A stretch of DNA of 64,000 bases. Source: Prorocentrum cordatum. Its lineage: Eukaryota > Sar > Dinophyceae > Prorocentrales > Prorocentraceae. Both the position numbers and the translations under genes were made by a program. Position 1 is the stretch's first letter. Every line of letters begins with the position of its first letter. The stretch is taken from assembly GCA_963575745.1 (NCBI GenBank), contig CAUYUJ010000359.1, forward strand, positions 118,133 through 182,132. Direction: 5' to 3'. The notes below the pieces were generated by a model. It made no database searches and was not told the DNA's origin. It saw nothing but the letters and a program-made list of their open reading frames with translations. This document shows positions 30,552-62,401 of the stretch, in pieces.

Positions 30552-30588
30552 TCCGTAGCCATTTTGGCTCAAGCCATTTTGTCTCAAG
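30552..30588 (+). other. Dinoflagellate spliced leader (exact, 22 nt) plus one truncated leader
   Basis: Positions 30552-30573 read T-CC followed by GTAGCCATTTTGGCTCAAG, matching the 22-nt dinoflagellate SL consensus at all positions, with T at the variable first base. Directly after it, 30574-30588 reads CCATTTTGTCTCAAG, which equals the 3' 15 nt of the leader with one substitution. In known biology a leader followed by a truncated leader marks a gene that was reverse-transcribed from a trans-spliced mRNA, reinserted, and trans-spliced again. It is not an SL-RNA gene: no GT splice donor follows. Confidence 0.95.
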
Positions 30589-30748
30589 ATGCCTGGTTCT
30601 CTTGGGCCAAAACGGATACCGCTAGTCCGCGGCTTGATCTCGAAGTTCTCTGCCTTCACTGCAGGGGTTGGGCGCCTGCACCAGTCTCATCCTTTCTCAC
30701 GAAGGTCCCTCTGTTGAGGGGTTCACTTGCCTCCGTTCACGGTCATTC

Positions 30749-31763
30749 ATGGCCCAAGATGGCTGGCACAGCAGTGGAGGGAAGGCTCGTCAGCAGTACC
30801 ACGACCCGTGCCCGCACTGCAGGTACCGCTGGAACTTCAAGAACAACCATTGGTGCTACCAGTGCACGGGGGCCCTGGTGTCGCAGCCTGATGGTTCGAA
30901 GCGGCCGATTGGGCAGTGGGCGTTTGGGCCTCCGCAGTTCTCGAGCTCGCCGTTCCATGTTCAGCCTGCTGGGTCTCCCTTCACCGACCCGACGCCGGCG
31001 CAGGCGGCTGCGGCAGCCGCCACGGGCCCAGGCAAAGGTCGTGGCAAGAAGGGTGCTCCTCCGCCACCTCGGGGGAAGGCCAAGGCGGGCCATGTTGACA
31101 GGCGTCCGTGGGTATATCGTGCAAAGTCCTGGCTCGAGCGCTGCTCCCTCAAGGTCCTGGAGGGGGGGGGCCTGGCTTCAGGAGGCGCGTGATGCAGAGG
31201 ACCTTGCGGTCACGGCGGCGGTCGAGGCCAAGCGCTCGTGGGGGGAAGCCTGCGCGAAGCAGCTCCCGCAGCCAGTGGCGTCGCCACCCGCTGCTGCTGG
31301 GGCATCGTCGCTCAACCTGTCCACGCTCCTGGGCGAGGACAGCGAGGTCGAGGGGCTCACCATCGTCGACGGCCCAATGTTCAGCACGGAGGGCCTCGAC
31401 CTCGACCCCGCGGACCTTCGCGAGTGGGAGCGGGCCAAGTCCAACCTTGCGGCTGGCACCAAGGCCGAGATCTCCAAGGCGCTCGGTTCGTCAGCCGAGC
31501 AGCTCGCCGCTCTTCGAGCGGAGGCCAAGCAGGTGTCCTTGCGGATGCAAGCGAAGCGCAGGCGGAGTGATGGCGCTGGCGATGGTGCTGGGGCTAGTGC
31601 TGTTGCTCAGCCTGGCGGGGCAGCTGCCTCTGGTTCCGAGGGCGACGGCGGCGGCACTCCTACCACCGGTTCAGCTGATGGGCCTGGGGAAGTTCGAGCT
31701 GCAGCCAGGCGCACCGCCAAGGAATCCTTCGACATCAACCGAGCAACGCAGCAGGGACTTTAG
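30749..31763 (+). pseudogene. Retroelement 1 ORF1 (Cys-rich finger protein), one frameshift
   Basis: The ATG at 30749 begins MAQDGWHSSGGKARQQ. Residues about 20-40 hold CPHC-RYRWNFKNNHW-CYQC, a Cys-x2-Cys-x11-Cys-x2-Cys finger resembling RanBP2-type zinc fingers. A Pro/Gly/Ala-rich basic stretch follows (GPGKGRGKKGAPPPP). A run of nine G (31162-31170) shifts the frame; the second half continues with WLQEARDAEDLAVTAAVEA, an acidic segment and a charged, probably helical region ending RATQQGL-stop. ORF1 proteins of such elements usually bind the element RNA; that role is inferred. Retroelement 2 has the matching protein. Confidence 0.75.
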
Positions 31764-31766
31764 CAA
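31751..31766 (+). promoter_or_regulatory. Conserved ORF1/ORF2 junction, CTT-TAG-C
   Basis: GCAGGGACTTTAGCAA spans the ORF1 stop codon TAG (31761-31763). The next open frame is +1. The same sequence (GCAGGGGCTTTAGCAA) stands at the equivalent place in retroelement 2 (57257-57272). CTT followed by a stop and C resembles known +1 frameshift sites such as CUU-UGA-C of bacterial prfB. The role is inferred. Confidence 0.6.
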
Positions 31767-32830
31767 ATCTATTGACCCTGGTTTGCCACACACCTTTTAT
31801 GGTGACATCTTCATGAGTACTGCGGAGGAGCTCGCCTTCGATCCGCAGGAGTACCTGGACAATCTCTACAAGTTCACGTTGAAGGAGGGTTGCCCTACGA
31901 CGCAGTATGGCGACATTTTCCTCACCGAGGCGGAGGAGGCCCTCTTTCTCCCTGCCGCTTAGCCCTTGACGGGCATTCTTCGTCTTAAAGATCAGGATCC
32001 CCAGCGCCGAGCTGCGATTCACCATCGTGAAGTACTTGAGCGGAGTCTCCGCTCTTACGCTGGCAGATGGATCCCTGACGCTAGCGCAGCGAACGAGGCT
32101 TCTGATGAGGCCCACTGGAAATGGCATTGCATTCCATTCATCTCGACGTGGTTGTCTCATCCTTTGCTGAGCCCGCTTGTTTCAGAAGCAGCCGCTGCGG
32201 CAGGCCATGGGAATCCTGCCATTGCAGCTCTTGATATGGCCAGGCGTATATGCGAGCGCGCTCGGCGCAGCCACCGTGCTCGCTATTTGCAGATGTTGCG
32301 GAACTTGGAGGCCGAAGATTTTGATTTGCGGCAGGAGGGGCTGCAGCGACAAGCGATGGCGTTCGTGGAAGCTTTGGAGACCCTCGACACACGTGCGCCG
32401 CAGCGGCGCGTGCAGGGCAGCTTCCAGGCGGTCCTCCCTTTTTGTGGGCGTCAATACCTTGCAGCGCCACCCGACCGAGATAGTCAGGTTGCTGGTATCC
32501 CTGCCTTCGGTCGGACGACGGGCTGCGCGAGTTCTCCGGCAAGTTCGCGGCCTCCATCTTTGGGCGAGGGGCGCAGGGATTCAGCCCCTGGTTGTCGCAG
32601 CCCCTCGCCCACATGCACTACGGCTACTGGCAGTTTGTCTTCAGTTTCCGCGACCCTTTCGGGTTCGGCCAGTTTTGCGAGGATTACCACCTGCGCTTCG
32701 AGCACCGCGTGCGGGTCTCAGGAGGCGCCAACAAGATGCCCTTCCAGCACGGGGTGTATTTCCACGGGTGCTTCTTTGACTCCGCCCTCGACGCAGATCA
32801 CATCTGCGCCAGAGGCGGGGGGGGCTAGTG
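31764..32830 (+). pseudogene. Retroelement 1 region of unknown function between ORF1 and endonuclease
   Basis: The +1 frame after the ORF1 stop gives 66 codons containing two similar segments, PHTFYGDIFMSTAEELAF and PTTQYGDIFLTEAEEALF, then a TAG (31960-31962). The same frame stays open to about 32450 (HHREVLERSLRSYAGRW, ALDMARRICERARRSHRA). Coding sense then moves to another frame (HYGYWQFVFSFRDPFGFG, FEHRVRVSGGANKMPF, GVYFHGCFFDSALDADH) ending at 32827. I do not recognise the family. Retroelement 2 has no equivalent region: its endonuclease follows ORF1 directly. Confidence 0.5.
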
Positions 32831-34494
32831 TCGGGCTGGGACGACGCTAATCACGACCCCTTCGATGACCTGGATCGCATGTTGGATGCGGAAGCGGCTG
32901 ACTCACGCCGTGCCCACAGGCGCGGAGGGAGGCGAGGAGCCACAACCCGCTGGGCCTCAGGTCTCTGGCCGCCCTGCTTCACCCCTCCGCCTGTCGTCGT
33001 CGGGAGGAGGAGGGGCACGCCTTAGGGGCGTGGCCGAAGCTTCCGAGGGCTCTAAGTTGGTGGAAGATGCGACCCCAGTCCCACATCTCCCAGTACCCCA
33101 TAAGCTTTCGAGTCGACCTGATATGGTTGCTCCTCTCGCTGCAGGTGTTGAGTCCTTTTCTTTTCTGTATGGGAATATCTCAGAATGGGGCCCACAGGCT
33201 CGCAAGTTTCTTAACACCACCTCGTTTGCCATGGTGTGCTTTGTTGAGATGCACGCGTTACAGTCCAGGTTTGTTGAGGGCATCGACCAGACTTTCGACG
33301 CTGACGGGTGAAAGACGGCTTACACGGGCAGCAAGGCTACGGGCAAAAGGTGGTTCTTCTGGCGGAGAGCTTGTTGCTATTCGCAAGCATCTGGCCTCCA
33401 CTAGCTTCCAAAGTATTCGCCCGGCTGCAGTCAGGCTTGGTAAGTCGGATCCATTCCGAGGGCTTGTACCCATGACCTTGCATCTCAGCAGCGGCAATGT
33501 GGTCGTTGTGGCTATATATATCTTTGGCCTGGACTTTCGACATCAGGCCACAACCAGTCTATTTTGATCAGTTTGGGTGCTTTTCTTTCGGCGTTAGCCG
33601 ATCCCTGGATAGTTGTTGGCGACTGGAATCTGGAACCTGCGGCATTTATTATTTCTTGATGGCCCTCGAAGTTGCAGGGCGAGATTCTGCATCCAGACGT
33701 GAAAGGTCACCTGCGACAAGGCGGCTCAAGGCACACTGATTGACTATGGATTGGTTAAGCAAGGCACGGCTGATCGCTTTTGTATGCGAGGTTGTGCATC
33801 AGTTCCGTGGAAGACGCACATTGCCCTGCAGGTTGGCATCCCTGGGTCTAAGCAGAGGTGGCGGCAGCAGCGCCTTGCCACGGCACCTGCGTTCCCGATG
33901 GTCTGCCGCCCCAAGAAGCAAGCTGACCCAAGCAGTAAGTCCTCGATTCAGAAACAGGAAGCGCTTATGCAACGTAGAGCGAAACTTCCTGAGGACCTTC
34001 AGGCTGAATTTGATATGCTTCACAAAGAGGCTGCGACCACGGCAGCTGAAGCTGATTCAATCTCTTTCTTTCTTCCTGAGGAAGCGCGGCCCTCAGGTTC
34101 CATTGCGGCGCCGCCGCTCGGGGAGATCAGCCGACGCACGCTGGAGCAGCATTTCCTTGGGGATATTAAGGCATCGGGCTCGTCGCAGCTCACCAGAAAG
34201 TACGGCACCTGGATTACCAAGATGGAAATGGCTTTCAGTGTTCACCATCAGCAGGAGGACTTCGAACCTCTGCGGGGCGCAGGCCCCCAGCTTAAGTGGC
34301 AGTTACCGCAGGCTGCTCCAGGACGTGCTCACCTCTCTGACCCTGTGGGTGAGCAGTGGGGCCTTGTGCACACGCTGGTATTGAGGGCGGTGTCGCCGGC
34401 GAAGCATGGGCGGGACCCCAAACAGCTATCCGATTGCTTCCAGCAACTACAGCGGCATGTTGCTTATTTTCATGCAGCAGATACATCTGAGTAG
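32828..34494 (+). pseudogene. Retroelement 1 endonuclease (APE-like), frameshifted
   Basis: Pieces in different frames give the exonuclease-endonuclease-phosphatase fold in order: SFLYGNISEWGPQARKFL and VCFVEMHAL (catalytic Glu, about 33155-33255), GGSSGGELVAIRKHL (33340-33390), WIVVGDWNLEP (the GDxN motif, about 33617-33650), TLIDYGLV (33731-33754) and PWKTHIAL (the late His, about 33810). After the last shift one frame runs open to 34494 with a basic and helical linker (KQEALMQRRAKLPEDLQ). The enzyme would nick the target DNA to prime reverse transcription. At least three frameshifts or stops disable this copy. Confidence 0.7.
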
Positions 34495-34548
34495 GTTGGC
34501 TCCTCTGGTCAGGAGGAGCAGAATCGCTGGCTTTGTTGGTCGGCCACC

Positions 34549-36922
34549 ATGCCCTCGGCCAATCACGACGAGCTCGATGATTGGTCACATTGGACGGAGA
34601 GACTGGCTCATCGGGCGCAGGCGCGATCTCTCACAAAGGGCAAGCACCAGTTCACAAAGTGGGCCCTAGAGCAATGGCGGCAACATCCTGGGCGTCTTCA
34701 TGCGATGGCTCGTGATCCTCAGCCTGCGGTGCATGAGAGTTATTGTCATGGGCAGGTCATTTCAGAACCTTCGGAGTTCATGGGCGAAAAGCAGAGATTG
34801 GCGTGCCTTGTGGACCGATGCAGTTGACGGTGCTGAGGCCATCACTCACATGCTTCAGCAGTTGCATGGCGAATCTCGGCGAGACCCGTTGCCTCCATTG
34901 GAGTTGGAATCTTTGGAGCGTGTGGTGGCCAAGCTTCCTGCGAAAGCCTCAGGCGTCGATGCTCTCACTCCTCGTGATCTTCAAAGGGCCCCTCCCCAAG
35001 GTCGGGCCGAGTTTCTAGAGTTGCTTAGCCAAGTCGAACAGGAAGGAGTTTGGCCAGCGCAGTTGCTTAGCACAATCTGCGCTCTTCTCCCCAAACCCAA
35101 GGGAGGGGAGAGGGTCATTGGACTCCTGGCCGAATCCGCGAAGATTTGGAGCCGCCTGCGCTATGGTGCTACCTCAGAGTGGACTGAGTCTTTGGAGGCG
35201 CACTGGGACACGGCTATTGCAGGCAGCAGCGCCTTACGCGCCGCTCTGTTGAGGGCTCTACTCGACGAGACGGCGACGGTCCTTGATATCACGGTGGCCA
35301 CGCTATTGCTGGACTTTGAGAAGTTTCATGGCTCGCTGTCTTGGGTTCTTTCGGGCTGCGCTGCGCAGGAGTTGGGGTATCCACCCATTGTGGTATGCTT
35401 GGAGGTGCAGTTATGTGCTGGTCCCCGCTTTCTTCGGGGTCAGAAGGGAGCGTCCGACGCCATCCTGCCGACTCGTTCGCTAGTGGCGGGATCCCCTCAT
35501 GGGGTGCGGTCAGCCAAGCTCTTTCTACACCCGCTGCTGCAGCGTGCTCAGGCCAGAGCCGACTTCACGACCTTGTGGACATTCATTGATGATACCGTGT
35601 TGCGTTCAGAGGGACCTCAGGATAAAGCAAAGACTCGCATGGTTGCGGCTGTTACTGAGTTCAAGCAGGGTTTGGACACAATGCGTCTGGTGGTCTCCCC
35701 TAAGACGGTGCTTATCTCTAATGTGATCCGCCTGGGCAAGAAGCTAGCCAAGAAGCTCCGTCGCAAGGCGATTCCTGTGCAGTATTGTTTGGAGGCTGTT
35801 GACCTTGGTGTTGATGCCACAGGCGGCGGACGAAGGACTGTTCGCAAATCTTCCCAGCGCGCTGCCAACGCTGCTCGTCGTGCTGCACGTCTGCTGCGTT
35901 TTCGGCGGCATGCACGGCTCCGCAAGGTTTCGCAGGGCCTGTGGAAGACTGGAGCGCTGCCGCAGGCAGCATACGGACATCAAGTACACGGCCTTGCACC
36001 ATATCAGCTCCTTCGCCTTCGACGGCAGGCGGCTACTGCAGGGGCAGGCCCGTTGAAGGGCAGGTGCTTGACCAGTACTTTAGCCATATCGTATGGTCAT
36101 AAAGATCCTGCTTTGGAGCTGAGACGCCAGCTTCTGGCGGAGTATCTCACGGCATGGCGCCTTCACCTTGAATTTCATCAGAGAGTTGAAACATCCTGGC
36201 CGGAAGTTATTCGTCGCCTGGAGGTTGCGGGGCAGGCAGGGCGCTGGCGATTGGTCAAGGGTCCAGTGTCTGCAGTGATCGCCACGTTGCTTGATGCTGG
36301 CTGGAAGCCACCCTCAGCTACTTCCTGGCGGCGCCCTGAGCACGGTGGATTTGCCGAGTGGAGAATCCCCACATCATCTCTGGGTGGTTTTTCTGGGGAT
36401 GAGATGGATGTTGGCGGAGCGATTGAAGATGTTATGCTTGATTTTGACGCTCAGCTTTGGTCTCGAGCTTCGGAGCATGAGGGAGCTGAAGATCTCGCTG
36501 GTGGGGCTGATCTCTATTGGGCTCGCCGAGAGTTCGCGAAGTTCTCGCAGAACGGGGGCTGCGACCAGGCTGGGCAGACACTGTGCGTGGCCGCTGGAGC
36601 GCAGTGGCCGCGGGCGCGCCAGTTCCCAACGGGCGCGGAGGAGCAGCAGCGGCGCCCCAGGTGTCTGAAGGCGCCTGAGACTCTGAGGCACAGAATTTGG
36701 GAGTGTGAGAGTAATAAGGATCATGAGGATTATTCCCTGTCCGCTCCCCTAGTGTCTCAAGCACTCGTTAATTGCGATATGAATCCTGCCTTGTGGCTTA
36801 GAGGTGTTCCCCCGACCAACCATACTCACCCTGAGTTGGTGGACCCACCCGAAGCGGAGGGTTTAGAATCTCTCGGCTCGACGTCCCTGACCGATTTGTC
36901 CTCTGTCGGTCCTGACCCCTGA
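34549..36922 (+). pseudogene. Retroelement 1 reverse transcriptase with zinc knuckle
   Basis: A linker in one frame (34549-34790: SHWTERLAHRAQARSLTKG) shifts into a 740-codon frame that is open from the ATG at 34700 to 36922. In that frame ASGVDALTPRDLQ is the conserved pre-palm box (residues 83-95), LLLDFEKFHGSLSW is motif A (Asp205), LVAGSPHGVRSAK motif B (261-273) and WTFIDDTVLRSEG motif C (Asp297-Asp298). The knuckle CLKAPETLRHRIWEC lies near residues 654-668. Non-LTR reverse transcriptases copy the element RNA at the nicked target. All catalytic aspartates are kept although upstream parts are broken. Confidence 0.85.
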
Positions 36923-37964
36923 GCTGTTGGCTTTCGCTTTGTGCCTTGAGGGCACCACTGGCCCCGTTCATTATGTCACGGACCACTTTCCCTTGATTAC
37001 TGGTTGGGAGCGGGGTCGGGTTAGTGCGGTGGGCGGGCGGAATTGGGACTTGTGGCTCCGAATTAAGACCGCTCTTGCTTCACGAGGTGAAGGTTTAGTA
37101 ACCTTGGAGTGGACGGCTTCCCACTTAGACACGGAGGCTGAGGGCCTAACGGCCCACCGGGTTTTCCTCAGGTCTGGAAATCCATTTGCGGACCGCGCGG
37201 CCTCAGAGGCCGCGGAGCGTTCTCGGCACCTTTCGGCCCGCACGGACCCTCGAACTGATTTTTGGGATGCTCAGACCGCCCTGCTTAGAAGGAGAGCGCG
37301 CCGCGCCCTGATCGACTCGTCAGCGGCCGACCCGGGGAAGGCCCGCCCTGCTGTGGCGCCCTTGGAGAGAGCGAGGCAGGGCTCGAAGTTGGATCGGGCG
37401 CTTCGCGCCTCCCCTCACAAGTTTGTGACCTTCGGCAGCGCGTTTCGTTGCAGGAGTTGCGAGGTGCTGTGTGATACGAGTCACCTCTTAGAGGTCTCCA
37501 AGGCGCCATGCATCCCTGCTGTTGGGGTGGACTCTTTCCCTTCTGACTTTGTCGTGGTGGTCCCTGGCCCCGTCGCGGTGTCTGGAGCGGTCTTGCATCC
37601 ATCCCACAAGCTTGCGCTTTGGGATCTGCATTGTCTGTACTTTTGTCAGTTTTGTGGCCGCACGGCTACTTCGGACGGGCGCTATTTGGCGCTTGTATGT
37701 AAAGCGCCCTCTCGCAAGGGCATTGAAAATCTGGCCAGAATTCGTCGTGGTTTGTACCCGGGTTATGCAGGCCCGTCCAAGGCGAGTGTCCTGCTGCGCC
37801 ACGCACGGTTTTCTGCCGTGGCCGACCAGCGAGCTCGAGCGCGAGATCCCATGTCGGAGTTAGCTGTGTCTCAGGGAGTCGGGGGGGCTTTTCCTGTTTC
37901 GGTGGACGAGGTCCCCCTCGTCCACCCCCCCTCCCCTGTCGACCCGAGCAGCGATTCCGATTAA
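36890..37964 (+). pseudogene. Retroelement 1 RNase H and C-terminal CxxC domain
   Basis: In the frame ending at 37964, TPELLAFALCL (Glu), VHYVTDHFPLITGW (Asp) and WTASHLDTEA..GNPFADRAA (late Asp) mark RNase H. The first Asp strand (TDGS) is not found, suggesting a deletion or a shift near 36860-36890. Then come FRCRSCEVLCDTSH and, at the end, HCLYFCQFCGRTAT..RYLALVCKAP..GIENLARIRRGLYPGY, the CxxC domain shared with retroelements 2 and 3. There is no in-frame ATG near the start, so it was probably once fused to the reverse transcriptase. Confidence 0.7.
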
Positions 37965-38056
37965 AGGGAGTGCCTTAGGCACATGCGTTCCTGCTTGCTG
38001 CTCTCTCCCTCTCTTGCCCTGCCCGCCTCGTTGCACGACGTTGCTTACCAAAACGT

Positions 38057-41426: not shown

Positions 41427-42665
41427 CCCAACCATCTTGTGGTGTTGGGTCCTCGTTTTGAAAAGACAGTCCCCGCGTTCTCCTTCTCTCCTCCTCTTCC
41501 CCTTCCTCCACCGTCCTCATGCGTCCCGCACACCAGTACGGCGTTTCGTGACCCTCCTCCCCCTCCTCCCTGTGTTTCACCCACCCAGTACAGCGCTTCG
41601 TGGCCCCATAGGGAGCCCCACCGAAGGTCCCAGTGCTACCGTCCGTTCCGCACACCCAGTACAGCGTTTCGTGGCCCTCATCCCCCTCCCCCCTGCGTTT
41701 CACCCACCCAGTACAGCGCTTCGTGGCCCCATAGGGAGCTCCACCGAAGGTCCCACTCCTACCGTCCGCATGCGTCCCGCAGACACCCAGTACAGCGTTT
41801 CGTGGCCCCATAGGGAGCCCCACCGAAGGTCCCAGCGCTACCGTCCGCATGCGTCCCGCACACCCAGTACAGCGTTTCGGGGCCCTCCTCCCCCTCCTCC
41901 CTGCGTTCCACCCACCCAGTACAGCGCGTCGTGGCCCCATATGGAACTCCACCGAAGGCCCCAGTGCCCCCGTCCACATGCGTCCCGGAAGGCCAATTTG
42001 GCATTTTCGCCCACCCAGTACAGCGCGTCGTGGCCCCATAGGGAGCCCCACCGAAGCTCCCAGCGCTACCGTCCGCATGCGTCCCGCACACCCAGTACAG
42101 CGTGTCGTGGCCCTTCTCCCCCTTCTCCCTGCGTTTCACCCACCCAGTACAGCGTTTCGTGGCCCCATAGGGAGCTTCACCGAAGGCCCGAGTGCCCCCG
42201 TCCGCATGCGTCCCGGAAGGCCAATTTGGCATTTTCCTTCACCCAGTGCAGCGTTTCGTGGCCCCATAGGGGGCTCCACCCAAGGCCCCAGTGGCACCTT
42301 CCATATGCGTCCAGGAAATGTAATTTGGCATTTTCACCTGCGCAGTGCAGCGCTTCGTGGCCCCATAGCGGGCTCCACCGAAGCCCTCAGTGGGACCGTC
42401 CGCATGCGTCCCGGTAACTCAATTTGGCATTTTCGCTCACTCAGTAGAGCGCTTCGTGGCCTCATAGGGAGCTCCACCGAAGCCCTCAGTGGGACCGTCC
42501 GCATGCGCCCCGGAAACCCAATTCGGTACACCACCCACACAGTACAGCGTTCCCCCCCGCCCAGTGCAGCGCTTCGTGGCCCCATAGGGAGCTTCACCGA
42601 AGCAGATATTTACGATTACGGTACCCACAACCGCATATGGTTGGGACCTTCGCCAGGATAATTTT
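41427..42665 (-). repeat. Inverted satellite block 1
   Basis: The block opens with the reverse complement of the 42-bp flanking module (CATCTTGTGGTGTTGGGTCC), then a TCC-rich spacer, then tandem monomers. The basic monomer is 77 bp (TTCGTGGCCCCATAGGGAGC to CACACCCAGTACAGCGC). It alternates with a 51-bp form in which CCTCCTCCCCCTCC replaces the middle. Later monomers carry CAATTTGGCATTTTC. The block closes with ATTACGGTACCCACAAC and GGGACCTTCGCCAGGATAAT. The same closing sequence ends blocks 2 and 3. It is non-coding. Confidence 0.85.
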
Positions 42666-42815
42666 GTTCGTGACGCGACCCCCAGAGCTCTGCAGGATCC
42701 CTTGCCCGGGACCGGTGCTTCCTCCCGAGTCGTTCTTTGACGGCCACGAGGCCTGGCGAGGGCCCCCGGAGGCTGAAAAAGCAACGGAAAGCCTCCCGCC
42801 GTCATTTTTGTTTCC

Positions 42816-45197
42816 AACCATCCTGTGGTGTTGGGTCCTCGTTCCCAACCATCTTGTGGTGTAAGGTCCTCGTTTTGAAGAGACGGTCCCAGCGTTCTCC
42901 TCCTCTTCTTCCTCCTCCCCCTCCTCTCTACCGTCCGCATGCGTCCCGCACACCCAACACAGCGTTTCGTAACCCTCCTCCCCTCCCCACCCAGTACAGC
43001 GCTTCGTGGCCCCATAGGGAGCCCCACCGAAGTTCCCAGTGATACCGTCCGCATGCGTCCCGCACACCCAGTACAGCGCTTCGTGGCCCCATAGGGAGCT
43101 CCACCACCCACCCAGTACAGCGCTTCGTGGCCCCATAAGGAGCTCCACCGATGGTCTCAGTGCTACCGTCCGCATGCGTCCCGCACACCCAGTACAGCGT
43201 TTCGTGGCCCTCCTCCCCCTCCTCCCTGCGCTTCACCCACCCACTACAGCGCTTCTTGGCCCCATAGGGAGCCCCACCGAAGGTCCCAGTGCTACCGTCC
43301 GCATGCGTCCCGCACACCCAGTACAGCGTTCCGTGGCCCTACAGGGAGCTCCACCGAAGGTCCCAGTGCTACCGTCCGCATGCGTCCCGCACACCCAGTA
43401 CAGCGTTTCGTGGCCCTCCTCCCCTCCTCCCTGCGTTTCACCCACCCACTACAGCGCTTCGTGGCCCCATAGGGAGCCGCATGCGCCCCGCACACCCAGT
43501 ACACCGCTTCGTGGCCCCATAGGGAGCTCCACCGATGGTCTCAGTGCTACCGTCCGCATGCGCCCCGCAAGCCCAGTACAGCGTTTCGTGGCCCTCCTCC
43601 CCCTCCTCCCTGCGTTTCACCCACCCACTACAGCGCTTCGTGGCCCCATAGGGAGCCCCACCGAAGGTCCCAGTGCTACGTCCCACCCAGTACATCACTT
43701 CGTGGCCCCATAGGGAGCCCCACCACACACAGTACAGCGTTTCGTGGCCTCCCTCCCCCTCCTCCTTGCGTTTCACACATCCACTACAACGTTTCGTGGC
43801 CCCATAAGGAGCCCCCCCCGAAGGTCCTAGCGCTACCGTCCGCATGTGTTCCGCACACCCAGTACAGCGTTTCGTGGCCCTCCTCCCCCTCATCCCTGCG
43901 TTTCGCCCACCCAGTACAGCGCTTCGTGGCCCCATAGGGGGGCCCCGCCGAATGTCCCAGTGCTACCGCCCGCATGCGTCCCGCACACCCACTACAGCGT
44001 TTCGTGGCCCCATAGGGAGCCCCACCGAAGGTCCCAGTGCTACCGTCCGCATGCGTCCCGCACACCCAGTACAGCGTTTCGGGGCTCTCCTCCCCCTCCT
44101 CCATGCGTTCCACCCACCCAGTACAGCACTTCGTGGCCCCATAGGGGGCCCACCGAAGGTCCCAGTGCTACCGCCCGCATGCGTCCCGCACACCCTGTGC
44201 AGCGCTTCTTGGCCCCATAGGGAGCTTTACCGAAGGTCCCAGCGCTACCGTCCGCATGCGTCCCGCACACCCAGTACAGCGTTTCGGGGCCCTCCTCCCC
44301 CTCCTCCTTGCGTTCCACCCACCCAGTACACCGTTTCGTGGCCCCATAGGGAGCCCCACCGAAGGTCCCAAAGCTACCGTCCGCATGCGTCCCGCACACC
44401 CAATACAGCGCTTCGTGGCCATAGAGAACTCCACCGACGGTCCCAGTGCTACCGTCCGCATCCGTCCCGCACACCCAGTAAAGCGTTTCGTGGCCCTCCT
44501 CCCCCTCCTCCCTGCGTTTCACACATCCAGTACAGCGCTTCGTGGCCCCATAGGGAGCCCCACCGAAGGTCCCAGTGCTACCGTCCGCAGGCGTCCCGCA
44601 TACCCAGTACAGCGCTTCGTGGCCCCATAGGGAGCCCCACCGAAGGTCCCAGCGCTACCGTCCGCATGCGCCCCGCACACCCAGTACAGCGCTTCGTGGC
44701 CTCATAGGGAGCTCCAACGAAGGCTCCAGTGCCCCCGTCCGCATGCGTCCCGGAAGCTCAATTTGGCATTGTCACCCACCCAGTGCAACGTTTCGTGGCC
44801 CCAAAGGGGTTCCACCCAAGGCCCCAGTGCCCCCGTCCGTATGCGTCCCCGAAGCTCAATTTGGCATTTTCACCCACCCAGTGCAGCGCTTCGTGGCCCC
44901 ATAGGGAGCTCCACCGAAGCCCCCAGTGAGACCGTCCGCATGCGCCCCGGAAACCCAATTTGGCATTTTCACTCACTCAGTAGAGCGCTTCGTGGCCCCA
45001 TAGGGAGCTCCACCGAAACCCTCAGTGGGACCGCCCGCATGTGCCCCGGAAATCCAATTCGACACACACCCCACACAATACAGCGTTCCCCCCCGCCCAG
45101 TGCAGCGCTTCGTGGCCTCATAGGGATCTTCACCGACGCAGATATTCACAATTACGGTACCCACAACTGCATCTGGTCGGGACCTTCTCCAGAATAA
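42816..45197 (-). repeat. Inverted satellite block 2
   Basis: It opens with two tandem copies of the flanking module (42816 and 42846; CCAACCATCYTGTGGTGT), followed by about 25 monomers of 77-bp and shorter types, then the CAATTTGGCATTTTC-bearing monomers, and closes at 45136-45197 with the ATTACGGTACCCACAAC terminus. Confidence 0.85.
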
Positions 45198-47178
45198 TTT
45201 TAAAATAACGACCCCGCGGGTCGTAAGCCCTCGTCGTCGGTCTCTGCTGATTGAGAGTTGTGCTTCTCTCCTTTTCCATCGCTCCGCTTTGTCCGTCACC
45301 CGAACTCGGCGCGCTCTTCTATCTGGGTCCGTCCTCCTCCCCCTCCTCCCTCCCCCAGCACCATCATCATCATCACCCGTTTCAGCACACCCCTCACACG
45401 TTTCGCGGCCCCACAGGGAGCCCCACCAGAGGTCCCAGTGCTACCGTCCGCATGCGTCCCGCACACTCAGTACAGCGTGTCGTGGCCCTCCTTCCCCTCC
45501 TCCCTGCGTTTCACCCACCCACTACAGCGCTTCGTGGCCCCATAGGGAGCCCCACCGAAGGTCCCAATGCTACCGTCCGCATGCGTCCCGCACACCCAGT
45601 ACAGCGCTTCGTGGCCCCAGAGGGAGCCCCACCGAAGGTCCCAGTGCTACCGTCCGCATGCGCCCCGCACACCCAGTACAGAGCGCTTCGTGGCCCCATA
45701 GGGAGCCCCACCGAAAGTCCCAGCGCTACCGTCCGCACGCGTCCCGCACACTCAGTACAGCGTGTCGTGGCCCTCCTCCCCTTCCTCCCTGGGTTTCACA
45801 CATCCAGTACAGCGCTTCGTGGCCCCATAGGGAGCCCCACCGAAGGTACCAGTGCTACCATCCGCATGCGTCCCGCGCACCCAGTACAGCGCTTCGTGAC
45901 CCCATAGGGAGCCCCACCGAAGGTCCCAGTGCTACCGTCCGCATGCGCCCCGCACACCCAGTACAGCGTTTCGTGACCCTCCTCCCCTTCCTCCCTGCGT
46001 TTCACCCACCCAGTACAGCGCTTCGTGGCCCCATAGGGAACCACACTGAAGGTCCCAGTACTATCGTCCGCCTGCGTCCCGCACACCCAGTACAGCGCTT
46101 CGTGGCCCCATAGGGAGCCCCACCGAAGGTCCCAGTGCTACCGTCCGCATGCGTCCCGCACACCCGATACAGCGCTTCGTGGCCCCATAAGGAGCTCCAC
46201 CGCAGGTCCCAAAGCTAGCGTCCGCATGCGTCCCGCACACCCAGTACAGCGTTTGGTGGCCCTCCTCCCCCTCCTCCCTGGGTTTCACACATCCAGTACA
46301 GCGTTTCGTGGCCCCATAGGGAGCCCCACCGAAGGTCCCAGTGCTACCGTCCGCATGCGTCCCGCACACCCAGTACATCACTTCGTGGCCCCATAGGGAG
46401 CCCCACCGAAAGTGCCAGTGCTAACGTCCGCACGCGCCCCGCACACCCAGTACAGCGTGTCGTGGCCCTCCTCCCGCTCCTCCTTGCGTTTCGCCCACCC
46501 AGTACAACGTTTCGTGGCCCCATAGTGAGCCCCACCGAAGGTCCCAGTGCTACTGTCCGCATGCGTCCCGCACGCCCAGTACAGAGCGCTTCGTGGCCCC
46601 ATAGGGAGCCCCACCGAAGGTCCCAGCGCTACCGCCCGCACGCGTCCCGCACACCCAGTACAACGTTTCATGGCCCCATAGTGAGCTCCACCGAAGGCCG
46701 CAGTGCCCCCGCCCGTGTGCGTCCCGGAAGCCCAATTTGGCATTTTCACCCACCCAGTGCAGCGTTTCGTGGCCCCATAGGGGGCTCTATCCAAGGCCCC
46801 AGTGCCACCGTCCGCATGCGTCCGGGAAATGTAATTTGGCATGTTCACCCGCGCAGTGCAGCGCTTCGTGACCCCATAGGGGGTTCCACCGAAGCCGCCA
46901 GTGGGACCGTCCGCATGCGTCCCGGAAACCCAATTTGGCATTTTCACTCACTCAGTAGAGCGCTTCGTGGCCCCATAGGGAGCTCCACCGAAGCCCTCAG
47001 TGGGACCGTCCGCATGCGTCCCAGAAACCCAAGTCGGCACACCACCCACACAGTACAGCGTTCCCCCCCGCCCAGCGCAGACTTTCGTGGCCCCATAGGG
47101 AGCTTCACCGACGCAGATATTCACAATTACGGTACCCACAACTGCATATGGTTGGGACCTTCGCCAGGATAATTGTCA
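45198..47178 (-). repeat. Inverted satellite block 3
   Basis: After about 180 bp of unrelated sequence the array resumes at about 45385 with the same monomers. It again ends with CAATTTGGCATTTTC-type monomers and the ATTACGGTACCCACAAC..TTCGCCAGGATAATTG terminus (47116-47178). The opening differs from blocks 1 and 2: no 42-bp module is seen. Confidence 0.85.
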
Positions 47179-49870: not shown

Positions 49871-50190
49871 CCAGAGGCCTGGGGGGTGCGTTGGCGAGCT
49901 CGTACCCCCCCCCAAAACGGCATTTTGGATTCCAGTGGAGGGGGAAAGGTGGAGGGGGCCAGCCAAATGCCTCACACGCCCTTTCACCCTTGGCAAGCAA
50001 GCGGGGGTCGGCAGATCACGATCCCCATAGTTCGACATCTGCCCTCTTCGTTGTTTCGTTCACCCCCTGCCCTCATCCATCACCTGTCATCCATTTCGTT
50101 CCTTCTGTTTCTGAAGGCACAAGATTTCATGACTTGCTTAGCTTCGCTTGAGGTTGAAGACGCAGCCGTTGGATACATAGACGCGCCGAG

Positions 50191-50205
50191 GAAACCGGCA
50201 CCCAA
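50191..50205 (+). repeat. 5' target-site duplication of the bestrophin retrogene
   Basis: GAAACCGGCACCCAA directly precedes the leader remnant. Its partner GAAACGGCACCCACAA follows the A-run at 51777. They differ by one single-base indel and one inserted C. Confidence 0.8.
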
Positions 50206-50224
50206 CCGTAGTTGTTGGCTCAAG
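50206..50224 (+). other. Decayed spliced leader at the start of the bestrophin retrogene
   Basis: CCGTAG followed by TTGTTGGCTCAAG matches the SL (CCGTAG, then CCATTTTGGCTCAAG) with a 2-nt deletion and two substitutions. It starts exactly where the 5' target duplication ends, the position expected for the capped end of a trans-spliced mRNA. Confidence 0.85.
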
Positions 50225-50280
50225 CCGCTGCGCTCCAGACGAAGTCTCTCTGCTGGAGACTCCGCCCCTGCAGCCCGGCC

Positions 50281-51657
50281 ATGACCTCGGCGGCGATGGC
50301 GAGTCTACGATCGCCGCCAGTGGCGGGGGCGCAGCCACTGGCACCAGGGCTGGCCCAGCGGGGCCGCGTCCGGCGCCCGTCTGCTGGCAGAAGGCCGACG
50401 GTGGAGCGGATGGCGGCCCGCCTGACGCCGCTGGCTTGCCCTGCCTGGCCCGTCAGCAGGGGCACCGCGGCTCTCGTGTTGCTGGGCTGCGCGAGGATGA
50501 GGAGATGCAGACGCCGTGTCTGGGAGAACGTGGACGCCGCGGTTGCCGAGTCGGCCTCCCAGGGCGTTGGCGTTGGAGAGGGCAGCTTTTTCTCGGAGCA
50601 TCGGGAAGGGGCGTACAAGGCATGGACTCGGCATTCATCCCCGGTGCGCTACGGCAGCAATTTGACGTCTGCCGCTGTGTCGGCCACAACCCGCCGTGTG
50701 GCGCCCATCGTCTTACTGCTCTGCGTGTTCTCTGTCCTCCTGAACGAATATAACTCTCTGGCCACAAAAGATCCTACGCTCCCAGAGTTGGTGTTGCCCA
50801 TGAACCCGTTCGACCTTACCGCGCCGCTGGTCGGCTTGCTCTTAGTCTTCCGTACGGAGAGCTCTTATGCTCGGTATAAAGCTGGCGGTGAGTTGGTTCA
50901 GCAGTTGACGTCGCGGATGCGGGGGGTTGCGTGCAGGCTTTTGACTTGGAGTTACAGGTCGGTGCCGTGTGTGACCGAGGAGGTAGACGAGACGTCCAAC
51001 ATGTTGGCGCTTTACCACCAGTGGATCTTTGCTTCATACTTGCAGCCTAACGGCGTTCGGGCCACAGCAACTTCTGAGGTTTTTCAAAATGCATTCGGAC
51101 TTCCCATCGGCACAGGGCGGCCGTTGACTCCAGCAATTGCGGAGCTTGCTGTAGTTGAGCAGCTCTATAGCATGACGACCCTCAACGATCTGCAGAAGAA
51201 TCGCCTGGACGAGGAACTCTCCCAAGTGTCCGACACCCTTTCCAAGTGTGAGTACCTCATCCGCACCCCGATCCCTTTGGGATACACCCGAGCGACGACT
51301 CGCTTCCTCTTCTTGTGGTTGACACTGCTGCCGTTTGCTTTGGTTCGTAGTTTCTCGAGCTTTGGTGAGGGGTCCTGGTGGGACGGAAAGGCTCAGGTAG
51401 TCGTGCCAGCAGCCATGTTCTTCATCTCGTTTATGTTTCTAAGTCTCGAGGACGTCGCTGCGCAGATTGAGGAGCCCTTCAGAGCCCAGAGGGCGCAGCT
51501 AGAGATGTTGTCAGCCGAGTTTGTAGAGGACGTTCAGGGCATGAAGAAGTCTCTCATGCTCTCCGCCAGTGAGGGTCCGGGAGCTGCTCTGCCAAATCGA
51601 ATGACGACCAGACAGCCGAGAACGATACGCAATGAAGAGAATTATTTGAGCCGTTAG
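50281..51657 (+). CDS. Bestrophin-like (UPF0187 family) anion channel
   Basis: 458 codons from the first in-frame ATG after the leader remnant (50281). The family (bestrophin/RFP-TM, Pfam PF01062) forms chloride- or bicarbonate-conducting channels; plant and algal members act in the thylakoid membrane. Visible marks are a hydrophobic segment VAPIVLLLCVFSVLL (residues 140-155), PLVGLLLVFRTESSYARYKA (182-201, the family's R-T-x-x-S-Y-x-R box), LIRTPIPLGYTRATTRFLFL (326-345), a membrane segment to about 355, and FMFLSLEDVAAQIEEPF (384-400, the signature Gln-Ile-Glu-Glu-Pro-Phe). The first about 115 residues are Ala/Arg/Pro-rich with a hydrophobic patch near 60-72 and could be an organelle-targeting presequence; I cannot say which. 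The tail contains a charged helix. There are no introns, stops or frameshifts, so the copy may be expressed. Promoter and expression are unknown. Confidence 0.88.
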   Translation: MTSAAMASLRSPPVAGAQPLAPGLAQRGRVRRPSAGRRPTVERMAARLTPLACPAWPVSRGTAALVLLGCARMRRCRRRVWENVDAAVAESASQGVGVGEGSFFSEHREGAYKAWTRHSSPVRYGSNLTSAAVSATTRRVAPIVLLLCVFSVLLNEYNSLATKDPTLPELVLPMNPFDLTAPLVGLLLVFRTESSYARYKAGGELVQQLTSRMRGVACRLLTWSYRSVPCVTEEVDETSNMLALYHQWIFASYLQPNGVRATATSEVFQNAFGLPIGTGRPLTPAIAELAVVEQLYSMTTLNDLQKNRLDEELSQVSDTLSKCEYLIRTPIPLGYTRATTRFLFLWLTLLPFALVRSFSSFGEGSWWDGKAQVVVPAAMFFISFMFLSLEDVAAQIEEPFRAQRAQLEMLSAEFVEDVQGMKKSLMLSASEGPGAALPNRMTTRQPRTIRNEENYLSR

Positions 51658-51769
51658 ATCTGCATATGATGCCCAATGTTCGCAATCGGTTTCCTTCATT
51701 GTACTGTTGAAGCTCTACTCAGTCTTCAACTTCATTTCGACTTCAGCTCGTGCTGGATGTCCGACGCCC

Positions 51770-51792
51770 AAAAAAAGAAACGGCACCCACAA
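51770..51792 (+). repeat. A-run and 3' target-site duplication of the retrogene
   Basis: Seven A residues (51770-51776) are followed by GAAACGGCACCCACAA, the partner of GAAACCGGCACCCAA at 50191. Confidence 0.8.
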
Positions 51793-55984: not shown

Positions 55985-55999
55985 CCTCCTCCTCAATCT
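55985..55999 (+). repeat. 5' target-site duplication of retroelement 2
   Basis: CCTCCTCCTCAATCT, repeated without mismatch at 62387-62401; the bases outside the 15-mer differ. Confidence 0.9.
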
Positions 56000-56016
56000 A
56001 GCCGTTCTGGCCCAGG
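55999..56016 (+). other. Diverged spliced leader at the 5' end of retroelement 2
   Basis: TAGCCGTTCTGGCCCAGG matches SL positions TAGCCATTTTGGCTCAAG at 14 of 18 bases, and all four differences are transitions. It begins at the target-duplication boundary, so the inserted copy lacks only the first four or five leader bases. Confidence 0.75.
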
Positions 56017-56129
56017 TGTTTGGGCTTGCTGCAGCTGTCTTCAGAACGGCGCCGCTGCAGCGAGCCAACTTGGCTGATCGTGAGTCGCTCCAAGAGAGCG
56101 CAGAATTTCATAACGAGGAAGGTGCAGCG

Positions 56130-57269
56130 ATGGCGCCCGAGCCGCCGCCCCCACCCACGGTGCTCCGTGGGCCGCGGCGGCCCTTCTGGGCGTGCGGGAG
56201 GTGCTCAACGGCGGCGAACTGGGCATCTCGCATTCGTTGTCAGTGTGGGAATGAGGCGCCGCTTCGGATCAGGAACGAGGCCTGGAAGGCCCACAAGGCG
56301 GCGACAGCTGCCTTGCCTGCTGGTCAGTCGGGGGCGCCTCCTTCGAAGAGCAAAGGCAAGGATGACACCAGCAAGAGGCTCGCGGAGATGGAGAAGCTCA
56401 TCAGGTCGTTCTGCAGCAAGGGGGAGCCGCCGCCTGCTGCCAGCCCGACAGTGGCTCCGTGGGCCCAGGGTTCCAAGCCGTCGTCGGACATGGGCCCGCT
56501 GCTCGAGTCGGACGATGAGAAGGTCAAGCGAGAGAAGCTCACTGCGCTGCTGGGGCAGTACGAGACGGTGCTCAAGAGTCTTCCTGGGCCCGACGCAGAC
56601 CCCATCCGTGCAGCGACGATCGAGAAGATCAAGTGCATCAGGGAGCAGCAGAAGGCGCTGCGCACGCCTGCGATTGCACATCGCAGGACGGCCCAGGACT
56701 TGCACAAGGCCCGCTTGGCCCGTGCAAAGATGGAGGCCGAGATCGCGGAGAAGACCTCGCAGGTGCAGAAGCTGCAAGAGTCCATGGACGAGCGCAGGCT
56801 GCAGTTGGAGGCGAAGAAGCTCGAGATCGACAAGCTCGACGAGGAGTACAAGAGGACGGCTGCTCTCATTGCGCAGTCAGACGGGGAGCCGAAGCCGTCG
56901 GACACGTTCAAGCTGGAGATCAAGCCGGAGGAGACACAGGATCCTGATGTTCAGGCATTCCTCGGGTCGGATAAGTGGGAGATACTCAAGCCGATCATCC
57001 TCGCGAAGATCGGGCGGCCCTCGCAAGGGGGGCCCGATCATCCTCCTGCTGCTGCTGAGCCTCCTGGCGGCGATGTGGCCGCGGGAGATGACGACATCGA
57101 CATGGAGCAGCTCAACGGGGGCGACTTCGAAGCTCGAGCGGAGGCGTTCCGAGCCGCCGCAGAGGCCCTGCGAGCTGCTGAAGGTGCCGAAGCCCAGGCG
57201 GACGCCAAGCGGCAGCTTCTGCAAGCCCAGGAGGCCCTTGGGGTCAAGCGCCGCAGGCAGGGGCTTTAG
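56130..57269 (+). CDS. Retroelement 2 ORF1 (zinc-finger, coiled-coil RNA-binding-type protein)
   Basis: 379 codons from the ATG at 56130. The N-terminus MAPEPPPPPTVLRGPRRP precedes a finger, FWACGRC-STAANWASRIR-CQC (residues about 20-40), similar to the RanBP2 type and to ORF1 of retroelement 1. A Lys-rich linker follows (SKGKDDTSKRLAEMEKL). The middle is a long charged coiled coil (AQDLHKARLARAKMEAEIAE, QKLQESMDERRLQLEAKKLE). The C-terminus, ALRAAEGAEAQADAKRQLL to KRRRQGL-stop, ends at the conserved junction. Trimerisation and RNA chaperoning are typical of LINE ORF1 proteins with coiled coils, but are inferred here. Confidence 0.85.
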   Translation: MAPEPPPPPTVLRGPRRPFWACGRCSTAANWASRIRCQCGNEAPLRIRNEAWKAHKAATAALPAGQSGAPPSKSKGKDDTSKRLAEMEKLIRSFCSKGEPPPAASPTVAPWAQGSKPSSDMGPLLESDDEKVKREKLTALLGQYETVLKSLPGPDADPIRAATIEKIKCIREQQKALRTPAIAHRRTAQDLHKARLARAKMEAEIAEKTSQVQKLQESMDERRLQLEAKKLEIDKLDEEYKRTAALIAQSDGEPKPSDTFKLEIKPEETQDPDVQAFLGSDKWEILKPIILAKIGRPSQGGPDHPPAAAEPPGGDVAAGDDDIDMEQLNGGDFEARAEAFRAAAEALRAAEGAEAQADAKRQLLQAQEALGVKRRRQGL

Positions 57270-57272
57270 CAA
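57257..57272 (+). promoter_or_regulatory. Conserved ORF1/ORF2 junction, candidate +1 frameshift site
   Basis: GCAGGGGCTTTAGCAA includes ORF1's last sense codon CTT and stop TAG (57267-57269). ORF2 is in the +1 frame and reads straight through (TTT AGC AAG). The first ATG in the ORF2 frame lies about 450 nt downstream, inside the endonuclease and past its catalytic Glu, so a complete ORF2 product needs a +1 shift here or a non-ATG start. Confidence 0.65.
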
Positions 57273-59220
57273 GGCGGCACGGCCACAGCGGGAGCAGCAG
57301 CTGTGGAGGCTGTGGACGGTCAACTCGAGTGCATGGAGCTCTTTCCAGGGCTGCTTGGATTGGCAGAGGAGTTGGGGGGACAGCGCTCGGCCCCATGTGT
57401 GTTTTGGACAGGAACATCGGTTGAAAGATCTCACCAAAGTTCATAGTGCGGCAGGCTGGCTCCGAGGTCGAGGCTATCACGGGGCCTTCGGCAGGGCGAA
57501 GTCCACGGGTCAGCTTGCCACGGAGTCGTCAGGGGGAGTTCTGACGGCAGTCGCGTCCCACATTGCTTTCGCAGGATTGAGCCTCAAGCACCTCGGCGTG
57601 CAGTCAGGCTATTTCTCGAGGCTGAAGCTGATTCGTGCCAACTTCGCCTTCCCCCACGGCCTGCTGCTGGGCTCGGTCTACGGCTTTGTGGACGCATCTG
57701 ACAAGGTTTTCATTTGGGATATGCTGGAGGATTTGGGAGTGTTCCTGCGTCGGTCCAGGTCACCGTGGATTCTCGCAGGGGGCTTCAACTTGCCGCCAGA
57801 GGATATCAAGCTGTGCAAGTGGGTTGAGCTCCTCAAAGGCACGATCGTGGCCCCAAGTGGTCCGACTTGCTTTGCGTCCAAGTCAGGGTCCACGATCGAC
57901 TACTACATCGTGAGTCAGGGGCTTGCCAACTTTGTCAGTGATGTACGCGCGGTATACGGTACCCCTTCGTCGCCTCACGTCGCAGTTGCCATGCAGCTCA
58001 AGGGCCCTACTCTGAATATACCGCTGCATGTTCGCAGGACATGGAAGCCCTTCCCCACCTCCCAGAGGACGGGGCCTGTGCGGGAGCCTGCAGAGCACTG
58101 CTGGTCCTGGCCCGCAGGGGAGCCCGCAGGTGTTCGGCTGGAAGATGCGTGGTGCCAGTGGCTAAGCAACATGGAGCTGGAGCTGCGCAACCAGTTCGAC
58201 ATCGTCGGTGCTGGGCAGAGAGGCTTCGTCGGTCGAGCCGACGGGTTCGAGCGGCGGCAGGTGTCTCTCGCCGTGTCGATGGAGAAGGCGGTGCTTTCTG
58301 GCAGCGGGGCTCAGATGCGAGCCTGGAGGTCTCTGGATGCTATTCTATCCAGGTTCCATGCGCTCCAGGACGACACAGTTGGAGCCAGCGAGGAAGCAGT
58401 TGTTCAGCCGTCCTCAACGGGCTCAAGCGGCGCCTGCGCTCGGCGAGAGGAGCACGCGGGGGAGTGGCCAGCGGCGCCCAGCGTTGCTGGGCTCAGCACC
58501 GAGGGCCCGTCGCTTTCCCTGGGTTCCATGGGCTTTATCCTGCCTGACTACACGTCGCCGCACTCGGGGCCTACGCCGCTGGCTGGTGCTGAGGTCCAAT
58601 CGTCGACAGACCTGGTTACTGCAGACCCCCTGGGCCGTGAAGGTGGCCAAGGCATTAAACCAGGGGAGCGTCTCAGGGGCCAGGTCGGAGGGCTGCATGG
58701 GCGCAAGGGACGTGCCAGAGGCGATACCCGTCGTCACCTGCTGGAGGAGCTGGACCACCTCGACCTGTCGCTGCTGACGGGGGTCAAGGGCGTAGTTTTC
58801 GACCTGCACTCGCTGCGCAGCGTTGCGGAAGCGGGTGGGGAGGACCTGGCCACCCTGGCGACCAACGCCCACCAAGCGGCGCTGGAGGCGTCCCAGGCGG
58901 CGGCAAAGGTACAGCTGCAGGAGTGGAGAGAGTGGGCCCAGCCCGCGGTGAAAGCTGGTGGCCGTCGTGCTCACAGGTACCTGAAGGACTTGCCGCAGGT
59001 GAAAGGGCCAGTGGCTCCTGAGGGCTGGGCGCTGCAAGAAGATGCTGCAGTGCAGGCAATGCACATGGATTGGCTGCAGTACTGGGGGGACGCCAAGGAG
59101 AGCATCTCACAGGTCCAGGCAGCAGTCGCGCAGAGAGATGAGCTGCCCAGGCCGTCAGCTGAGTTCGCGCGGTGTGCCGTTCCTTCCCCCACCAGGTGGG
59201 CTGCGGGGTGGACTGCGTGA
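57270..59220 (+). CDS. Retroelement 2 ORF2, endonuclease part
   Basis: The +1 frame after the ORF1 stop reads QLWRLWTVNSSAWSSFQGCL, then VCFGQEHRLKDL (catalytic Glu), SSGGVLTAVASH, HGLLLGSVYGFVD, WILAGGFNLPPED, SGSTIDYYIVSQGL and SPHVAVAMQLKG. These are the successive strands of an APE-like endonuclease. Two catalytic-box residues differ from the usual form: GDFN reads GGFN (about 57777) and S-D-H reads S-P-H. A linker of about 350 residues follows with a helical stretch (ATNAHQAALEASQAAAK). The frame ends at 59220 because of a frameshift near a C run at 59187-59193; the protein continues in frame 0. Confidence 0.8.
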
Positions 59221-62200: not shown

Positions 62201-62324
62201 GTGGCAGGTTCCCATGGGGCGAGGGCCCCTCCTCGCCCGCTTCGGCCTCACGGTGGGCTCGCTCCCGTACTGGGAGCTGCAGGCCGCCCGTCGGGGTGCG
62301 GGGGAGGATGAGGAGTCGGTTTAA
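59190..62324 (+). CDS. Retroelement 2 ORF2, reverse transcriptase, RNase H and C-terminal domain
   Basis: Frame 0 reads CGVDCVNPRSFDLL, then TGA at 59316 in the sequence DR-stop-PTLMVFLGKPDG, where related enzymes usually have Trp. After ATG 59328 (numbering from it): GKPDGSGVRPIAL, motif A LATDLDKFYERI (Asp80), motif B VFAGCSLATSLAR (136-148), motif C VRNVIDDISV (Asp172-Asp173), thumb to about 330, zinc knuckle CNLCRLCMGAPGTTFHRRF-VC near 505-527, RNase H with MFTDGLAIF (about 597), VWTDCAATI (about 667) and WERKADAIADALGK (about 730), and C-terminal IVCCISRGAYARGG..ECHGHNAGKGLKQ..RLLAGLFPRW. A single stop and one frameshift make it inactive as it stands. Confidence 0.88.
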
Positions 62325-62386
62325 TCTGTCTCCGTTTTATCTCCGCGGTCGGTTTCTTGGATGCCGTCCGCCCTCGTCTTATCTTA

Positions 62387-62401
62387 CCTCCTCCTCAATC
62401 T
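62387..62401 (+). repeat. 3' target-site duplication of retroelement 2
   Basis: CCTCCTCCTCAATCT directly follows the element's last bases (CGTCTTATCTTA) and leads into a TCC tract. Confidence 0.9.

Follow-up and report, generated by a model that had tools for sequence, protein, structure and literature searches.

Structure of the bestrophin-like unit

The window analysed here, a stretch of 64,000 nucleotides of Prorocentrum cordatum DNA (contig CAUYUJ010000359.1), carries on its plus strand a bestrophin-like unit enclosed by two short direct repeats. The 5' copy of the target-site duplication, GAAACCGGCACCCA (50191..50204, 14 bp), was defined from the letters and from boundary tests, and it is followed by a decayed full-length dinoflagellate spliced leader (50205..50224), by stretches read from the sequence as the 56-nt 5' UTR of the retrocopied mRNA (50225..50280) and its 112-nt 3' UTR (51658..51769), and, between them, by an intact bestrophin-like ORF of 458 codons (50281..51657) with its ATG at 50281 and a stop codon ending at 51657. 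An A7 run regarded as the relic of a poly(A) tail (51770..51776) immediately precedes the 13-bp 3' copy of the duplication, GAAACGGCACCCA (51777..51789).

The leader relic lies upstream of the bestrophin start codon, ends 56 nt before it, and reads CCGTAGTTGTTGGCTCAAG at 50206-50224. It was compared with the leader CCGTAGCCATTTTGGCTCAAG, the reference sequence given in PMC6050394 (this and the other papers cited by PMC number are referred to for the portions available). If the variable first base D is assigned to A 50205, the relic differs from the leader by two substitutions and a 2-nt deletion, and no second leader relic was found behind it. The two repeats, of 14 and 13 bp, are one 1-nt indel apart; the duplication is flush to both ends of the insert and falls within the variable range of about 7-20 bp of target-primed insertions. 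The predicted single uninserted target is GAAAC(C)GGCACCCA. An uninterrupted ORF and a leader with these same changes starting exactly at the repeat boundary had been described in the first-pass annotation, and direct reading bore out both; the flanking repeats it had reported are present, with lengths of 14 and 13 bp rather than 14-15 bp and with their end at 51789 instead of 51792. Upstream of the insert, a pyrimidine-rich stretch at about 50080-50115, picked out by eye, could be a candidate trans-splice acceptor.

Allowing up to four edits, a full-length leader appeared on either strand at a rate of 0.04 per shuffled window (1 match in 25 shuffles); the real window holds three, namely the leader of the bestrophin unit, a perfect copy and, close to the latter, an inverted copy. 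By a looser local score the bestrophin leader alone was not significant (1.8 matches expected at its score of 11). When the flush repeat was evaluated against the 51777 site, the score of the true boundary was equalled at 0 of 19,955 upstream boundaries drawn at random, and 71 of 279,370 pairs reached the score of the bestrophin repeat when all 14 runs of at least six A in the window were pooled. The downstream copy is also the best plus-strand match to the upstream 20-mer of the unit, self-overlaps aside. Searching for a repeat ahead of such A-runs has little specificity on its own, as 7% of 71 shuffled A-runs reached a score of 22; sought in the window by A-runs alone, other A-tailed units yielded nothing convincing beyond the bestrophin unit, and the highest minus-strand A-run match (score 36) was discarded as a low-complexity GCGGC repeat. 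What makes the insertion convincing is that leader, repeat and tail fit together; by weaker criteria the single parts are unremarkable.

Relatives of the bestrophin-like protein and selection

The product of the 458-codon ORF matched Bestrophin_2 (PF25539) with an E-value of 2.2e-40 and 139.4 bits against a gathering cut-off of 27, and a profile built from it and seven homologues matched 7ek1, a bestrophin-like protein of solved structure, at 6.5e-36. Homologues numbered 173, of which 120 were listed; among those listed, P0001 and P0002 are 97% and 84% identical to the bestrophin-like protein. The differences of P0001 are clustered at the N terminus, with 14 in 72 aligned sites up to residue 77 versus 1 in 381 thereafter (Fisher p 2.7e-11), and those of P0002 amount to 15 in 37 N-terminal aligned sites versus 51 in 375 thereafter (p 1.4e-4). 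In noncoding sequence of the unit, about four changes are counted over the some 47 sites of leader and duplication taken together. On the assumption that this decay was neutral and took place at the present site, and with 10% of events being indels, the probability that a neutral frame remains open would be 0.50 at 0.005 events per site, 0.25 at 0.01, 0.04 at 0.023 and 0.0015 at 0.05. The earlier suggestion of selection on the protein is thus supported indirectly, by the N-terminal clustering of the P0001 differences and by the unlikely survival of the frame at the higher decay rates tried; judged on these comparisons, the ORF was probably kept by selection on a channel-like protein while the leader decayed.

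A genome search with the bestrophin-like protein gave 18 matches in the assembly, the unit included, and no near-identical parent was present in its 4,128,499,153 bases and 21,875 contigs. The best-scoring genomic paralogue is 39% identical, with interruptions near residue 242 and within residues 285-320; the remaining matches are 25-48% identical and partial or distant. The first-pass annotation had anticipated a parent with introns, and the best-scoring paralogue does contain at least two inserted stretches, but its sequence is too divergent for a direct parent. Since a close parent is missing from the assembly, the copy is an orphan retrogene as far as the assembly shows, as are most dinoflagellate retrogenes according to a review (PMC6050394). 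A search for leader relics at seven other bestrophin paralogue loci (L005-L011, of which L005 and L006 overlap) returned only two weak matches, a 5-edit leader 1.2 kb before the bestrophin match at L007 and a 3-edit 15-mer after the match at L010. No bestrophin relatives were found in the genome-contig and viral-contig collections. At L006 (C17510), the stretches inserted between the pieces of the paralogue have, by eye, inverted-repeat ends and are introner-like; introners in P. cordatum are mentioned in PMC10666404.

LINE-like elements in the window

Two further leader-headed elements lie on the plus strand of the window. LINE 2 spans 56000-62386 and is flanked by a 15-bp duplication, CCTCCTCCTCAATCT, at 55985..55999 (5' copy) and 62387..62401 (3' copy), the latter preceded by a short (TCTTA)n-like tail. 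It begins with a decayed leader, AG followed by CCGTTCTGGCCCAGG (56000..56016), that carries four transitions, and it contains one frame at 56002-59220 with an endonuclease match (Exo_endo_phos, PF03372) above the curated cut-off and another at 59319-62324 with a reverse transcriptase match (RVT_1, PF00078; E 3.5e-5) below it. Genomic matches to the reverse transcriptase frame number at least 47 (of 40,398 first-look candidates, 46 were scored), many of them 88-97% identical and with longer open frames; a protein search with the same frame produced only two homologues. As for the duplication, 3 of 165 TCC-rich and 16 of 19,955 random boundaries scored as high, in a control that included positions inside the 3' site itself, and TCCTCAATCT occurs on the plus strand only at the two repeat sites (once on the minus strand), so that the repeat is convincing mainly through its AATCT.

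LINE 2 sits in (TCC)n, and its 3' end is not poly(A). Two relatives that were compared also carry a short (TCTTA)n tail, and as they share much of their 3' flank they may represent one duplicated insertion. At another locus, L050, a leader is followed by CCATTTTGGCTCAAG, by CCGTTCTGGCCCAGG and then by nearly the sequence that follows in LINE 2, the relic having two younger leaders in front of it. This layout identifies the old relic CCGTTCTGGCCCAGG as a trait of the LINE 2 family, in front of which newer leaders have been added; LINE 2 itself begins inside such a leader array. LINE 2 was considered as the evident enzyme donor for the bestrophin copy and rejected, given its position in (TCC)n and the (TCTTA)n ends of its family.

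Element 1 opens with a perfect 21-nt leader (30553-30573) and a truncated relic (30574-30588), together 30553..30588, followed by an ATG. The perfect leader marks the window as nuclear DNA of a dinoflagellate. Its LINE-like body (30589..38056) ends at a (TCC)n tract (38057-38109), and the region with the tandem leaders (30394-38109) has (TCC)n on both sides. Its layout, a GDWN motif seen by eye and a very weak similarity to LINE 2 suggest a LINE, a label that we keep tentative because none of the six frames scanned gave a Pfam match. Twelve nt after the tandem leaders there is an inverted leader-like 21-mer with 4 edits (30601-30621, minus strand); as a functional hairpin it was rejected (fold z -1.68, with 14 of 200 shuffles as good). 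Elsewhere in the window, large satellite arrays occupy 4229-5943 and 41522-47062, with periods that include 90, 77-79, 99, 129 and 205; they are inverted relative to each other and about 65-70% identical.

Leader copies across the genome

The exact leader not followed by G, a pattern that leaves out copies before G in order to avoid leader RNA genes, occurs 10,532 times in the assembly, and the same pattern read backward, used as control, does not occur. We studied the first 90 of 100 listed places, in contig order, leaving out the other 10. A TCC/GGA microsatellite was present in the 30 nt before the leader at 22 of the first 30 places (identity of at least 0.67; 23 with L014, at 0.667) and at 35 of 60 in the further set (identity of at least 0.66), that is, at 58 of 90 overall at 0.66. 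For comparison, the frequency was 3.6% among 850 stretches farther upstream and 0.6% among 1,080 downstream of the leader. Several microsatellite-flanked leader loci have in common the 5' stretch GATACCGCTAGTCCGCGG of element 1. At L018 (C1:893877), a short leader-headed unit (about 1 kb) contains a KOW-motif ORF and has TCC-rich sequence on both sides, so mRNAs other than those of LINEs may also enter microsatellites.

Three tandem leader copies (G000:C39:19904, 25145 and 28181) have nearly identical flanks on both sides, which indicates that a retrocopy was afterwards duplicated at the DNA level. Three records of the viral and prokaryote collections contain the exact leader; they were kept out of the replication test. 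One of these records, L001, is an IMG/VR contig of 7157 bp with 22% GC and a giant-virus-like character. It bears exact leaders at 2746-2766 and 2893-2913 on the minus strand, one of them 45 nt upstream of a visibly GC-richer ORF of 254 aa (1936-2700, minus). This combination suggests either the capture of a dinoflagellate mRNA in cDNA form or a chimeric assembly.

Duplications and A-tails at other leader loci

The layout of the bestrophin unit was sought at 19 leader loci with non-repetitive flanks, picked by eye, together with the unit itself. We counted leader-flush duplications with a score of at least 22 within 3.9 kb (1.5 kb for L036) and with at least five A in the 10 nt before the downstream copy. 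By score, 25 of 60 leader loci were not TCC/GGA-flanked; we excluded 11 of them from the duplication test on account of other simple or minisatellite repeats, of short TCC or pyrimidine runs, or as two of the three C39 copies; among the first 30 places, L021 and L040 were omitted for their repeat flanks, and the high-scoring downstream repeat matches there were not counted. The duplication at L036 had already been seen before this locus entered the set.

A duplication together with an A-rich tail was present at 7 of 20 loci (6 of 19 without bestrophin) versus 4 of 780 controls in which other flanks and internal positions were paired. Without the tail the score is less specific, with 7 of 20 loci versus 18 of 380 cross pairings. 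When 5 of the remaining 13 loci were followed to 10 kb, 3 more showed duplication and A-tail, which brings the bestrophin-type layout to 9 of 19 other leader loci over both distance ranges. The description of the bestrophin unit as a retrogene with leader, tail and target duplication therefore gains support from the same layout at other leader loci of the genome. Among the shorter units, L036 has an intact WD40 frame of 382 codons, an A6 tail and a 15-bp perfect core, AAGTCCCCCAAGAGG; L118 has a kinesin frame, a tandem leader and an A-rich tail; L109 has a 21-bp duplication and an A-rich tail; L113 shows A11 and a 13-bp duplication; L112 has five A in 10 and a duplication with one mismatch; and L121 has an A7 tail, two residues of which are possibly part of its 15-bp repeat.

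The longer units are L110 (6.5 kb, A9, 16-bp perfect duplication), L111 (8.1 kb, A7, 14-bp perfect duplication) and L117 (6.3 kb, A9, duplication matching at 13 of 14). In six frames scanned from these three units, the Exo_endo_phos match of L117 and the RNase_H match of L110 lay above the curated cut-offs; the other four of the six matches, RVT_1 in L110 and Exo_endo_phos, RVT_1 and RNase_H in L111, lay below them. Within the frames scanned, each of which gave one match, L117 matched the endonuclease only; a 495-codon frame with a possible reverse transcriptase motif was seen in L123. From their ends and domain matches we conclude that A-tailed LINE-like elements that start with a leader exist, and that they share the ends of the bestrophin unit: leader at the start, A7-A9 at the end, and duplications of 13-16 bp.

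A counted duplication was absent at 10 of the 19 other non-repetitive loci: within 3.9 kb at L115, L116, L119 and L120, to about 6.4 kb at L016, L030, L032 and L033 (a partial repeat at 5.9 kb in L030, score 21, was not counted), and within 10 kb at L108 and L114. The few sites inspected by eye showed no single nick consensus. L111 (C37) and L121 (C130) are different leader-headed inserts at one site, AATGCCCTCACCG, in similar host sequence, and this is a repeated use of one target; the downstream duplication of L121 is immediately followed by another exact leader.

Origin of the bestrophin-like unit

We consider it very probable that the unit is a processed retrogene made by LINE-type, target-primed insertion from a leader-capped, polyadenylated mRNA, with later decay of the leader and retention of the ORF. 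As the ends of the unit suggest, a bestrophin-like pre-mRNA would have been trans-spliced to the dinoflagellate spliced leader and polyadenylated; a LINE-encoded endonuclease and reverse transcriptase would have made a staggered nick and started copying at the poly(A) end, and copying would have reached the very 5' end, leaving the complete leader against the 14-bp target duplication. The likely source would be an A-tailed LINE family of the same genome with leader-capped RNA, whose enzyme could prime on the poly(A) of a host mRNA. After insertion, the leader would have decayed while the ORF was kept.

The decayed state of the leader could also have been inherited, if the parent was already a retrogene with an old relic and a later copy was truncated within a leader array. 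LINE families do inherit decayed leaders, as the leader and relic CCGTTCTGGCCCAGG of L050, the relic that also heads LINE 2, illustrate, and the start of LINE 2 falls inside a leader array. The bestrophin insert, however, starts precisely with the first base of a complete leader, a point at which truncation would have fallen only by luck, and it lacks a second relic behind that leader; we regard this course of events as unlikely.

Copying by the machinery of LTR retrotransposons (Ty1/copia) appears very improbable. LTR integrases produce short duplications of fixed length, about 4-6 bp, and LTR-made retrocopies may be without A-tails, whereas the duplications found here are longer and variable (14 and 13 bp at the bestrophin unit) and are placed after A-rich tails. 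These observations stand against the inclination of the review of dinoflagellate retrogenes, in which the responsible retroelement is called unknown and LTR elements are favoured, and in which Ty1/copia elements are described as highly expressed and heat-activated in dinoflagellates (PMC6050394). That an ordinary genomic gene acquired a leader-like motif, an A-run and repeats by chance is hardly credible, despite the non-significant loose local score of the leader alone and the fact that A-runs with an upstream repeat are not rare by themselves, in view of the rarity of full-length leaders in shuffled windows (0.04 per window), a flush repeat equalled at 0 of 19,955 boundaries and the recurrence of the layout at 9 of 19 other leader loci.

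Probable insertion by LINE-type machinery and the existence of LINEs bearing the same leader are what this analysis adds to the first-pass annotation. Unless the RNA of these LINEs is itself trans-spliced, it is difficult to account for a leader that heads their DNA copies and is renewed in tandem arrays. LINE RNA and host mRNA would then share both termini, so that host mRNAs would be ready substrates, poorly discriminated by the enzyme. We lean slightly towards this wider proposal, in which the leader is part of the replicon and is renewed over successive cycles, giving rise to arrays of relics, and host mRNAs are routine substrates of LINEs. Retrogenes are estimated at 22-23% of the genes in two Symbiodinium genomes (PMC6050394); if LINEs are trans-spliced, this would explain a share of more than 20%, and the bestrophin unit would be an instance in which the product of the process can still be read.

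Target duplications and A-tails at leader-headed units, together with LINEs that share these ends, point to LINE machinery and offer a simple genome-wide test of which machinery makes retrogenes. Exact delimitation further permits dating through the two copies of the duplication, a search for the empty site and the measurement of retrogene survival.

Comparison with known systems

In the bestrophin unit, a leader retrogene, both limits of the insertion can be fixed, and its ends point to LINE machinery. The long leader-headed units contain endonuclease, reverse transcriptase and/or RNase H matches, a layout that we take to be I-group-like. Leader-tagged retrogenes as such are well known in dinoflagellates (PMC6050394; PMC12014239, Haro 2025; PMC7245778; PMC11453091; Slamovits and Keeling 2008 and Song 2017, as cited in PMC6050394). 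Like these DinoSL retrogenes, the bestrophin unit combines a 5' spliced-leader relic with a retained coding frame; unlike them, for which the leader relic serves as the mark (PMC6050394; PMC12014239), it is delimited by an A-tail and target duplications that recur at other loci. The term "target site" has no occurrence in the available text of PMC12014239. LINE-mediated retroposition of leader-bearing RNA has been proposed for endogenous RNA-virus genes in Symbiodiniaceae (PMC10235124). That argument proceeds from nearby LINEs and leader relics, while ours proceeds from the ends of the insert; "target site", "poly-A" and "direct repeat" do not occur in the main text of PMC10235124. Among the literature matches for dinoflagellates, spliced leader and target site duplication, as far as their available portions go, the last phrase was met only for intronic DNA elements, and the matches listed described neither leader-headed LINEs nor target duplications or A-tails of dinoflagellate retrogenes that begin with a leader; we claim priority for neither.

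With mammalian processed pseudogenes and retrogenes of the L1 type (PMC7692494), the bestrophin unit shares the uninterrupted ORF, the 3' A-tail and target duplications of LINE size. It differs from the mammalian L1 system in that the 5' end is marked by a trans-spliced leader and that here the LINEs themselves bear the leader. The long units resemble I-group-like LINEs and SymbioLINE-Dnmt (PMC5890265) in their three domain matches. Unlike those elements, the LINEs of P. cordatum start with one to three spliced leaders, many of the leader-headed units lie in (TCC)n or (GGA)n, and their tails are either poly(A) or (TCTTA)n.
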